Shown here one piece after another: positions 42,556 through 46,014 of a DNA stretch of 64,000 nucleotides. The notes under the pieces were generated by a model that worked only from the letters and a program-made list of their open reading frames with translations, was not told the DNA's origin and ran no database searches. The DNA comes from Planctomycetota bacterium (lineage in GTDB: Bacteria; Planctomycetota; Phycisphaerae; UBA1845; UTPLA1), in the NCBI GenBank assembly GCA_016235815.1, contig JACRIM010000045.1, forward strand, positions 186,001 to 250,000, given 5' to 3'. The position numbers and the translations under genes were made by a program. Position 1 is the stretch's first letter; each line of letters starts with the position of its first letter.

Positions 42556-43869
42556 TCAGGATGCCTTCACCGGCGGCCGGCCGATGGAGTAATACGTAAA
42601 CCCCCGTCGCTTCATCTGGTCCACGGAGTAGAGATTGCGTCCGTCGAAGATGATCGGCTGCTTCAATGCCGCCTTGATGCGATCAAAGTCGGCCGAGCGA
42701 TATTCATTCCACTCGGTGCAGATCACCAGGGCATCGGCGCCCGGCAACGCGGCGTAGGCATCCGTGCAATACTGAATCTTGTCGCCGAATTCCTTCTTGA
42801 GATGGTCGAGGCCTTTCGGGTCGCAGGCCCGGACGGTCGCCCCACCCGCGAGAAGTCCCTCAATGATCCGCAGTGAGGGCGCCTCGCGAATGTCGTCCGT
42901 CTTCGGCTTGAAGGCGATGCCCCAGATGGCGAATGCCCTGCCCTTCAGATCGCCAAAGTGCGAACGGATGCGGTCGACCAGCAGACCCTTCTGCTGTTCA
43001 TTCACTTCATGAACGGCCCGCAGCAGGTCGGCCTCGATGCCGGCGGCCTTTGCGACGTGCCACAAGGCCTGCACATCCTTCGGGAAGCAGCTTCCGCCGT
43101 AGCCCGCGCCGGGATACATGAAATGCGAACCAATGCGGGCGTCATACCCCATGCCGGTGCGAACTTCATCGACATCAATGCCGAGCTTCTCGCAGAGATT
43201 CGCCACCTGATTGATAAAGCTGATGCGCATCGCGAGGTAGCAGTTCGCGGCATACTTGACCATTTCCGACGCAGCCCGCTTGACCACGATGATGGGGTGG
43301 TTGTTTCGCACGAACGGCGCGTACAGCTCTTTCATGAGCGTCGCGGCGTATTCGCTGTCGGTGCCAATGACCACGCGATCCGGCCGGAGGAAGTCGTCCA
43401 CGGCCGAACCTTCCTTGAGGAACTCGGGATTGCTGACCACATCGATGGGGTGCTTCGTGTGCGAGGCGATCAGTTGCTCCACGCGGGCCCCGGTGCCGAC
43501 GGGCACGGTCGATTTCATCACCAGCACGGTGTGCTTGTTCACGGCCTTGGCAATGTCCACCACGGCCCGCTCGATCATCGACAAATCGGCCGATCCATCC
43601 GCCTTCGGCGGCGTGCCGATGGCAATGAAGATCACGTCGGCGTGCTCGACAGCCTCTTTCAGATTGGTGGTCAGTCGGAAGCGACCCGCCGCCAGATTGG
43701 ATTGCAACAGGTCGGTCAGACCCGGCTCAAAAATCGTGCATTCGCCGCGCGACAATCGCGCGACCTTGTCGGCATCGACGTCGAGGCCGATGACATGGTT
43801 GCCGGTGTCGGCGAGACAGACGCCGGTGACGAGGCCGACGTAGCCCGTTCCTACAATGGTGACTTTCAT
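42556..43869 (-). CDS. ugd: UDP-glucose 6-dehydrogenase
   Basis: The 437-residue enzyme oxidises UDP-glucose to UDP-glucuronate with two NAD+, feeding envelope polysaccharide synthesis. The NAD-binding motif GTGYVGLVTGVCLADTGNHV opens the protein; the catalytic cysteine is in GYGGSCFPKDVQAL; the C-terminal UDP-binding domain has FAIWGIAFKPKTDDIREAPS. The polysaccharide deacetylase at 19955 is not linked by position. UDP-N-acetylmannosamine dehydrogenase is the alternative, but VKSTVPVGTGARVEQLI fits Ugd. Confidence 0.95.
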   Translation of the reverse strand: MKVTIVGTGYVGLVTGVCLADTGNHVIGLDVDADKVARLSRGECTIFEPGLTDLLQSNLAAGRFRLTTNLKEAVEHADVIFIAIGTPPKADGSADLSMIERAVVDIAKAVNKHTVLVMKSTVPVGTGARVEQLIASHTKHPIDVVSNPEFLKEGSAVDDFLRPDRVVIGTDSEYAATLMKELYAPFVRNNHPIIVVKRAASEMVKYAANCYLAMRISFINQVANLCEKLGIDVDEVRTGMGYDARIGSHFMYPGAGYGGSCFPKDVQALWHVAKAAGIEADLLRAVHEVNEQQKGLLVDRIRSHFGDLKGRAFAIWGIAFKPKTDDIREAPSLRIIEGLLAGGATVRACDPKGLDHLKKEFGDKIQYCTDAYAALPGADALVICTEWNEYRSADFDRIKAALKQPIIFDGRNLYSVDQMKRRGFTYYSIGRPPVKAS

Positions 43870-43956
43870 TCGGTATCTCCCCGGCGTGCATCGCCGCGAC
43901 GTAAACTACTTGGGCCGGGAATTATCGTCGGTTTCGCCGCCTCATTCCAGAGGCGA

Positions 43957-43985
43957 TTGCGAGGCCTTGACACGACGCCTACACT
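43957..43985 (+). promoter_or_regulatory. Putative promoter of the SelW-like gene
   Basis: TTGCGA at 43957-43962 and TACACT at 43980-43985 are spaced by 17 bases and lie 29 bases before the start codon. Each matches the consensus in four of six positions. Supports the short gene being expressed on its own. Confidence 0.35.
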
Positions 43986-44014
43986 CCCGCCAAGGCCCGA
44001 AAAAGGAGTGGACC

Positions 44015-44257
44015 ATGAAGATTCAGATCACCTACTGCCAGCAGTGAAACTACAAACCGCAAGCCACCGGTCTGGTGGCGGAGCTGACCGAGAAATATGG
44101 AAAAGGGACGCACGAGTACGAGCTGATCGGCGGCTCGGGAGGCGTGTTTGACGTCGTCGCCGATGGACAGCGCGTGTTCTGCAAAAAGGAAGTGGGGCGA
44201 TTTCCGGGTTATGCGGAAATCCCGATGGCGATCGATAAGATTCTGATCAATCGGTAA
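44015..44257 (+). CDS. SelW/Rdx-family selenoprotein with in-frame TGA as selenocysteine
   Basis: From the ATG at 44015 (AGGAG six bases upstream) the frame reads MKIQITYCQQ, TGA at 44045-44047, then NYKPQATGLVAELTEKYGKG and on to a TAA at 44255. Treating TGA as Sec (U11) gives an 80-residue protein with the CxxU redox motif C8-Q-Q-U11 followed by NYKP, and a FDVVADGQRVFCKKEVGRFP segment, both typical of the thioredoxin-fold Rdx (SelW/SelT/SelH) family. Conservation continues across the TGA, so this is not a decayed gene. A hairpin of bacterial SECIS type follows the TGA. SelA, SelB and tRNA-Sec are not in the window. Confidence 0.85.
44063..44079 (+). promoter_or_regulatory. Bacterial SECIS-like hairpin downstream of the Sec codon
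   Basis: GCCACC (44063-44068) pairs perfectly with GGTGGC (44074-44079) around the loop GGTCT. The loop starts with GG, and 21 bases separate it from the TGA at 44045-44047. Both fit the known bacterial SECIS rules (stem in the coding region, G in the first loop positions, about 16-37 bases from UGA). Confidence 0.7.
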
Positions 44258-44262
44258 GAGCA

Positions 44263-46014
44263 TCACATCGGAAGAAGGGCGATATCCTGAATGGCGTGTC
44301 CGTGGGCTCGCGCAACGGGAATCGTTGCCGTCGGCTCTTCAGGGACATCCGGCCGCCAGAGTACGAGCGAATCGCGAAGGTCATCCACCGCGACAATGAC
44401 ATCGTCCGCGCCGGCCGCCCAACGCAGCGGTTTCTTCCAGCGATACTCCGCATGATAGGATTCGCCGAGCACGCGAAGCGTCAGGTGCGTCCGCTTGTCG
44501 GCGCTCAGCAACCTCGGCGCGCCGCCGCCTGCAAGGCCTACCAGTGAATGCACTGCATCGCCGCCGGGCGATTGAAGCACGTTGGCAGTCTCCGTGTCGC
44601 GAAGGTCCCAATGCACGATCGCGCCGCTGTCGAGGCCCGCGTACACGTCGCGACCTTCGACGAAAAGCGAGTGAATGGTGGCATTCGCGTACAGCACGAT
44701 CGGGGCCTCCTCGGTGTCGGGCCGCCAACCGAGGACGCGCGAATCAACCGTGAACCAAAGGCGGCCGTCCCCGGATGGTTGCACATCGCGAACGGCCTTC
44801 GCCCCACGAGTCGATTCCGACAAGACCAATTGCGACGTTGTCGGCTCCGCGAGGCGCCAACGAATCAGCCCTGCTTCGGAGTGCGATGCATAAAGCGAAT
44901 CGCCAAGAATACACGCGGCATTAACGCCGCCGCGCAAAGTGCCCGGGGCCGTGAACGAATACGAAGTGGGCTCAGCGGAAACCTTGGGGTCTAGCACAAA
45001 TACGCCGTTGCGTGCGCCAACGAGTAAGACGCCCTGCTCCCCGCGTTGTCCGATGCGAATACTACGAAGTGGGCCGAGCGTCGACGGCAGCGAATCTCTG
45101 CGGGTCGGCTTTTCGCCACCATTGGGAGAGAACCAAAGCAACTCCTGCCCGGCCACAACGAGGATCGCCTCCGTGCGACATTGGTTTGCGCCGAGGCTCA
45201 TAAGCCCGCGATAGAGTTCCCCGCGACGCGACACGTCAAACGTGCGAATCAAGTCGATCACGCCTGCGCCGCCGGAGGATTTCGCGGTCTGCTGCGCGCG
45301 ATCAAGGATGGCGGCGAGGTCGTCAAGATGCTGCTTGCGGGCCTCGGCGGCGATGGTGCGAAGTTTCGATTCCTCCGTTACCCGCTCGGCACGGCGTGTC
45401 GCGGCTTGTTGATCGCGCTGGAAATCCGCGAACGCCGGCGATTGAAACGTCGCGCGAATGTCGCCCGCAAGCGTCAGGCCGGTTGAAAAGCCGATGGGCT
45501 GGAAGTGCTCGGCGAGGACGGCGTTGAACGATTGCTGCGTTGCAGTGGATGCAAGGGATGCGGCGTCATTTTGGTTTGCAAAGATGGCGAGTGCTTGACG
45601 GACCGCGGTCTCAACATGAGAACCAAGGGCCGTCGCGTCGACGCTGTTTCGGCTGCCGATAAACGATTTGCGAAACAGCTCCAGCTCGGTTCGCTCGGGA
45701 ACGATTTGCACGGACAGGTTCAGCGCGGCCTTGAATTCGAAACCATCGCGCGACGCGACGACCATGTCTCCAAAGCGGACCGGGATTGGCATGGATTTGA
45801 CGAAGAGCACTTCTCGAACCCCGCCGGAGTCGATGGACTGCCCCCCGCGGACAAAGGCCGGATGGCTCGCATCCCCCCACACCAGCGCAACGCATGACGG
45901 CGGGACGACGAACTGACGCGTGAGCAGCGAGAACAGATCAGCCGCCGGCACGAGCCGCGCGACGAGCGATTCATCGCGAGTGAAGGCGTCGAGATTAAAG
46001 GCGGTTGAGATCAT
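44263..46014 (-). CDS. SPFH/band-7-like domain fused to a beta-propeller
   Basis: The 583-residue protein begins with an SPFH-like region (about 30-215; VREVLFVKSMPIPVRFGDMV, ALNLSVQIVPERTELELFRK), a charged coil (about 215-260; FQRDQQAATRRAERVTEESK), and ends with a WD40-like propeller (about 290-575; VQPSGDGRLWFTVDSRVLGW, IHSLFVEGRDVYAGLDSGAI). No signal peptide or membrane helix is clear. It lies 74 bases downstream of the Vps4-like gene on the same strand and probably scaffolds or recruits that system to membranes; SPFH proteins assemble on membranes. The fold assignments are by eye. Confidence 0.7.
   Translation of the reverse strand: MISTAFNLDAFTRDESLVARLVPAADLFSLLTRQFVVPPSCVALVWGDASHPAFVRGGQSIDSGGVREVLFVKSMPIPVRFGDMVVASRDGFEFKAALNLSVQIVPERTELELFRKSFIGSRNSVDATALGSHVETAVRQALAIFANQNDAASLASTATQQSFNAVLAEHFQPIGFSTGLTLAGDIRATFQSPAFADFQRDQQAATRRAERVTEESKLRTIAAEARKQHLDDLAAILDRAQQTAKSSGGAGVIDLIRTFDVSRRGELYRGLMSLGANQCRTEAILVVAGQELLWFSPNGGEKPTRRDSLPSTLGPLRSIRIGQRGEQGVLLVGARNGVFVLDPKVSAEPTSYSFTAPGTLRGGVNAACILGDSLYASHSEAGLIRWRLAEPTTSQLVLSESTRGAKAVRDVQPSGDGRLWFTVDSRVLGWRPDTEEAPIVLYANATIHSLFVEGRDVYAGLDSGAIVHWDLRDTETANVLQSPGGDAVHSLVGLAGGGAPRLLSADKRTHLTLRVLGESYHAEYRWKKPLRWAAGADDVIVAVDDLRDSLVLWRPDVPEEPTATIPVARAHGHAIQDIALLPM

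Follow-up and report, generated by a model that had tools for sequence, protein, structure and literature searches.

Does the TGA at the eleventh codon of a short open reading frame in a planctomycete genome mark a broken gene, a reassigned codon or a selenocysteine (Sec)? The frame lies in a 64,000-nucleotide stretch of Planctomycetota bacterium assembly GCA_016235815.1 (contig JACRIM010000045.1, positions 186,001 to 250,000), hereafter the window, in which all unprefixed positions are counted. An earlier note, made from the letters of the window, had read the locus as a SelW/Rdx selenoprotein gene with an in-frame TGA and a SECIS hairpin. Judged from sequence, the locus (Table 1) is most probably a bacterial SelW-like (Rdx) selenoprotein gene in which TGA is read as Sec (probability about 0.97), which bears out the chief claims of that note. 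The selenoprotein family was already known, and the gene adds an ordinary new member to it.

Table 1. Features assigned at the selW locus, in window coordinates
Feature	Coordinates	Strand	Basis
Putative selW/rdx selenoprotein gene	44015–44257	+	ATG to TAA (44255–44257), 80 residues, Sec as residue 11; translated with TGA as U
In-frame TGA, predicted Sec codon of the C8-x-x-U11 motif	44045–44047	+	One TGA each in 49 of 50 Rdx matches, 61 genomes of the order
Candidate bacterial SECIS hairpin, stem GCCACC/GGUGGC, apical loop GGUCU (44069–44073)	44063–44079	+	bSECIS limits, conservation, covariation, loop codon constraint
Probable ribosome-binding site AAGGAG	44003–44008	+	Six bases before the ATG; read from the sequence

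The reading frame and its product

Ten codons precede the TGA, and translation of the frame with this triplet as U (MKIQITYCQQ-U-NYKPQATGLVAELTEKYGKGTHEYELIGGSGGVFDVVADGQRVFCKKEVGRFPGYAEIPMAIDKILINR) places it exactly at the U of C8-Q-Q-U11, with the frame continuing to a TAA as the earlier note had described. The product scored 64 bits against Pfam PF10262 (Rdx; cutoff 22.6) and 52.7 bits against NCBIfam TIGR02174 (CXXU_selWTH; cutoff 34.2), and fell just below the cutoff of NF041051 (86.5 against 88 bits). The gene is solitary, standing between a divergent UDP-glucose dehydrogenase-like gene (42556–43869, minus strand) and a convergent open reading frame without a Pfam match (44263–46014, minus strand). 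A good ribosome-binding site had been claimed upstream and is present; the promoter-like pair claimed with it was not recovered, since a promoter and terminator scan found no sigma-70-like pair in 43850–44330 (0.2 expected) and no terminator around selW. An Rfam search of 43500–44800 yielded no family matching the hairpin discussed below; its sole match, mgtE, scored 13.4 bits where the gathering score is 200, and was taken as chance. Scanning the window for TGA-interrupted genes by codon preference returned 16 candidates, selW included; most of the other 15 resemble, by eye, adjacent gene pairs, upstream noise or antisense frames, though the window may hold further selenoprotein genes.

The AlphaFold2 model of the product (pLDDT 92.8, from 24 sequences) has the predicted thioredoxin-like fold of SelW, with C8 ending strand 1 (residues 2–8) and U11 in the loop ahead of helix 1 (residues 14–28). 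The best match in the PDB was 2fa8, a putative SelW-related protein (TM 0.85), and the 21 matches at E ≤ 0.001 were chains of six entries, all of which were also matched by sequence. The Rdx structures 2fa8, 2oka, 2ojl, 2p0g, 2obk and 3dex share this fold at 25 to 35% identity (TM 0.74 to 0.89), and in the alignments of 2fa8 and 2oka these two carry CxxC where the gene here has CxxU. Mouse SelW (2npb) ranked 23rd among the PDB matches, with the same fold (TM 0.68) at 22% identity; its motif is CxxU, as in the gene here. The product is most likely a thiol/selenol redox protein of thioredoxin-like fold, its CxxU lying at the passage from strand 1 to helix 1. The function of SelW is described as unclear in excerpts of PMC1088965, where the CXXU motif is held to suggest redox activity and an interaction of the protein with glutathione is reported.

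The hairpin downstream of the TGA

Counted from the TGA, the stem of the hairpin begins at 15 bases and the loop at 21, the distance at which the earlier note had placed a perfect six-pair SECIS hairpin. Checked against the bacterial SECIS (bSECIS) limits of PMC13188914, section 5 (loop of 3 to 9 nt, stem of 4 to 16 bp, G among the first two loop bases, 16 to 37 nt from the UGA, energy at most −7.5 kcal/mol), it lies within them (loop 5, stem 6, spacing 21; −13.4 kcal/mol for 44045–44090). Taken singly, it is nevertheless no better than chance, and in this respect the case is weaker than the note had made it: folding z-scores for four stretches of selW ranged from −1.15 to +0.63, and when codons were resampled for the same protein (20,000 trials), six of six pairs recurred at these columns in 18% of trials, while 40% contained a 6-bp SECIS-like hairpin of comparable kind. 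What makes the hairpin convincing is its conservation across relatives.

This conservation was measured over 56 loci, comprising that of the window, 47 of the 49 other Rdx matches in the order (among them the second copy of the host genome, L061) and 8 of 11 named loci. The named loci comprise six metagenome-assembled genomes of Planctomycetota by title (two Planctomycetota, one Phycisphaerales, two Phycisphaerae and one Planctomycetaceae; 54 to 67% identity), two Chloroflexota at 44% identity and three partial matches; by this kinship the host is counted among the planctomycetes. Left out of the 56 were G011:C22:204740, the match without TGA (G016:C676) and L058–L060, matched over residues 16–53 only. 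Since the loci were selected for [YF]C-x-x-TGA-[NDG][YFH], the set tests the hairpin and not the TGA; with identical 60-base stretches counted once, 49 distinct homologues were retained.

At least five of the six pairs can form in all 49, compared with an expected 34% and a maximum of 55% in 1000 codon resamplings, a null in which codon usage was taken from nine genes of the window, in place of the relatives themselves. Under a column-wise synonymous shuffle, all of the inner five pairs were formed in a mean of 32 and at most 37 homologues (1000 shuffles), compared with 40 observed. Both sides had changed at three of the six pairs (17 cells), and none of 500 shuffles reached either 17 cells or the covariation score; two of five covariation measures were weak or empty, as three covarying pairs were reached by 16 and the number of further pair types by 207 of 500 shuffles. 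Sliding the partner by one to three columns lowered pairing from 90% to 17 to 64%, and RNAalifold predicted the same helix without its outer pair and with an added inner A-U or G-U pair. Of the 49 homologues, 21 lack the outermost pair and 9 lack the fourth.

In every one of the 49, the loop sequence is (A/G)GU(C/U)U. A loop codon for Ser is AGT in 28 of 28 cases, whereas AGT accounts for 4 of 148 Ser codons in the remainder of these genes; a loop codon for Gly is GGT in 21 of 21, compared with 43 of 339 (p-values for these contrasts are inflated by relatedness of the rows, though their direction is plain). With 49 aligned hairpins, an invariant loop GU and a matching choice of Ser codon, the set offers a clean case of RNA structure constraining codons.

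These results bear on an alternative in which Sec is inserted but the hairpin is a by-product of coding, SelB being recruited by another element or by the context of the UGA. Such a by-product would explain why the single-gene hairpin is within chance, and the bases immediately following the UGA are also conserved, though they encode Asn-Tyr, residues that had partly served to select the rows. Against it stand the compensatory changes, a loop Ser codon scarcely used elsewhere in the same genes, and a placement and loop that fit the bSECIS model, and we consider it very improbable. A hairpin that serves as the SECIS of selW is the reading that we retain.

Elsewhere in the phylum, two of eight additional Sec genes fail to pair at these columns (L098, two of six pairs; L087, one of six), and in both RNAfold gave a six-pair hairpin in another register. 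The eight scored homologues without Sec (four with Gly, four with Cys) retained one to five of six pairs, with five in L082; the scoring of these further phylum loci excluded L085 and L088, both read by eye from six frames.

Conservation of the TGA and the host selenocysteine machinery

An Rdx gene with CxxC that had been broken by a change of TGT or TGC to TGA, as a pseudogene or through an error in the host assembly, would likewise show one TGA in a frame open everywhere else; the assembly is a draft (4.58 Mb in 60 contigs, 95% complete). In the order, however, the TGA recurs: across 61 genomes (its own included), Rdx was matched in 44, and exactly one TGA was found in 49 of the 50 matches, the remaining one (25 bits) lacking, by eye, both Cys and Sec at the motif. 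Extending the comparison of residue 11 to 294 genomes of the phylum gave 134 Rdx matches in 115 genomes, of which, counted from match rows, 124 had one TGA and 10 had none (four with Cys, four with Gly, one with neither and one starting past its TGA); at least one TGA copy was present in 113 of the 115. Unrelated sequence after the TGA in close relatives had been named as grounds for rejecting the selenoprotein reading, and the sequence there is homologous, with 26/63 to 46/69 residues identical in eight chosen comparisons. In all eight chosen pairs dN was lower than dS (0.24 to 0.61 against 1.1 to 2.8), and the sequence downstream of the TGA is, judging by these alignments, under purifying selection. 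Together with the full Sec machinery of the genome, this leaves a pseudogene or assembly error hardly credible.

The machinery is that predicted for the organism by the earlier note (selA, selB, selC and selD), the absence of which would have counted against a Sec codon. A selB gene was found (309 bits, cutoff 242), in whose product the C-terminal winged-helix domain wing_3 lies above its Pfam cutoff and wing_2 just below its own; selA follows directly on the same contig (535 bits, cutoff 268), and selD is also present (378 bits, cutoff 125). A tRNA-Sec gene reached 67.6 bits (gathering score 47). Among 14 control genomes, the cutoffs were passed for selB in two, selA in one, selD in two and tRNA-Sec in five; because of the last figure the identity of the tRNA was decided by its anticodon, TCA, with which ARAGORN also called it tRNA-SeC. 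One other hit, which at 47.6 bits also exceeds the gathering score, is a tRNA-Ser. Reassignment of TGA to an ordinary amino acid in the host, which would equally account for a conserved protein being read through the triplet, is very improbable given this tRNA-Sec, selA and selB and the fact that TGA ends 6 of the 11 neighbouring open reading frames picked, which bears out an earlier remark that TGA is also a stop here.

Computation shows the frame, the family, the predicted fold, a conserved TGA followed by conserved sequence, a hairpin kept across relatives and Sec machinery encoded by the same genome; Sec insertion, expression of selW, and the redox task and substrate of its product we infer. 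In this scheme, SelB carrying Sec-tRNA-Sec would bind the hairpin just downstream of the UGA (44045–44047) and deliver Sec there in place of termination, after which translation would run on to the TAA.

The host selD (L063:1562–2608, plus strand; G000:C21) is probably a second selenoprotein gene in its own right, because it has a single in-frame TGA, at L063:1613, read as NCAGUAGK; SECIS candidates after this TGA within the spacing of the model are weak, at 4 to 5 bp only. The genome also has a second SelW gene with a TGA (L061; G000:C9:125833–126042, minus strand), which lies on another branch of the tree than the first and has the same hairpin with five of six pairs. With this Rdx gene besides selW and selD, the host likely has at least three Sec genes.

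Within the order, selA was matched in 42 of 44 genomes with Rdx compared with 11 of 17 without (Fisher P = 0.004), and over its cutoff in 41 of 44 compared with 10 of 17; the two Rdx genomes lacking selA are 75% and 80% complete. Rdx was absent from all 13 genomes of one family (f5), in six of which (G033, G036, G039, G045, G051 and G057) selA was nevertheless over the cutoff. SelW would have been lost or never gained in this family, and Sec decoding kept in those six genomes. In another family (f4), 6 of 13 genomes (G019, G025, G029, G032, G047 and G050) gave the SelA match as two parts of a single open frame, with the break near model position 260, which suggests an insertion in SelA.

Known SelW proteins and relatives without selenocysteine

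Bacterial SelW-like selenoproteins were described between 2005 and 2008 (PMC1088965, PMC1794560, PMC2398784). The gene shares with that family, as far as excerpts of these papers describe it, the CxxU motif, TGA as Sec, a SECIS that follows at once within the coding sequence and a G in the apical loop; nothing essential differs, and the host genome has two copies. The coding position is unlike that of the eukaryotic SECIS, which the sections of PMC13188914 used here place in the 3' UTR. For SelW-like proteins, very few or no Cys homologues are reported in Sec-containing organisms in extracts of PMC1794560, and the Planctomycetota Rdx count agrees with that scarcity. Sec genes have been reported in other planctomycetes (PMC4807772, in part); the literature searched, available partly as excerpts, yielded no SelW detail for the phylum. 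The present set adds a lineage that keeps SelW in its Sec form and is at most a modest extension, leaving views of selenium biology unchanged.

Standard gene callers stop at a TGA of this kind or start after it. Genes like selW, which is well supported here, are easily lost or truncated by gene calling.

The phylum also holds Rdx paralogues without Sec. Four have Gly (GGC) at the Sec position (G198:C182:13125–13331, G305:C62:2815–3021, G183:C221:4280–4489 and G335:C216:36–248; loci L081–L084 and L099–L102) and retain one to five of six hairpin pairs, and in a fifth, G120:C199, Cys and Sec are both missing from the motif; each of the five genomes has a TGA copy as well. In an Rdx tree built on few columns and with long branches, these five form one branch (support 100/95) with the Sec gene of G323 as sister (97/87), and the redox-less copy of G016 falls elsewhere, on a long branch. 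Judged from sequence comparison, the branch looks like one in which Sec, SECIS and redox chemistry have been lost and the fold kept. According to portions of PMC4807772, planctomycetes also have Gly in the place of Sec in a different protein, fmdB. A broader proposal, that Planctomycetota Rdx is almost all in Sec form and that one branch exchanged Sec not for Cys but for Gly (GGC), or kept no redox residue, while losing most of the hairpin, is tentative and somewhat doubtful. If true, the SelW fold would have moved to a non-redox task, with a Sec copy and a redox-less copy occupying the same position ahead of a MutS-domain gene in two genomes that belong to a single family.

That arrangement was seen at L103:5089–5361 (minus strand) and L104:5013–5222 (plus strand), where Rdx immediately precedes a gene with MutS domain V. 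In the flanking stretches examined around the four Gly copies, blastp found no open reading frame similar to the MutS-domain gene. One of the two MutS-adjacent copies has CxxU with six of six hairpin pairs and the other lacks both redox residues, and the MutS-domain genes that follow the G120 and G323 Rdx copies are 60% identical.
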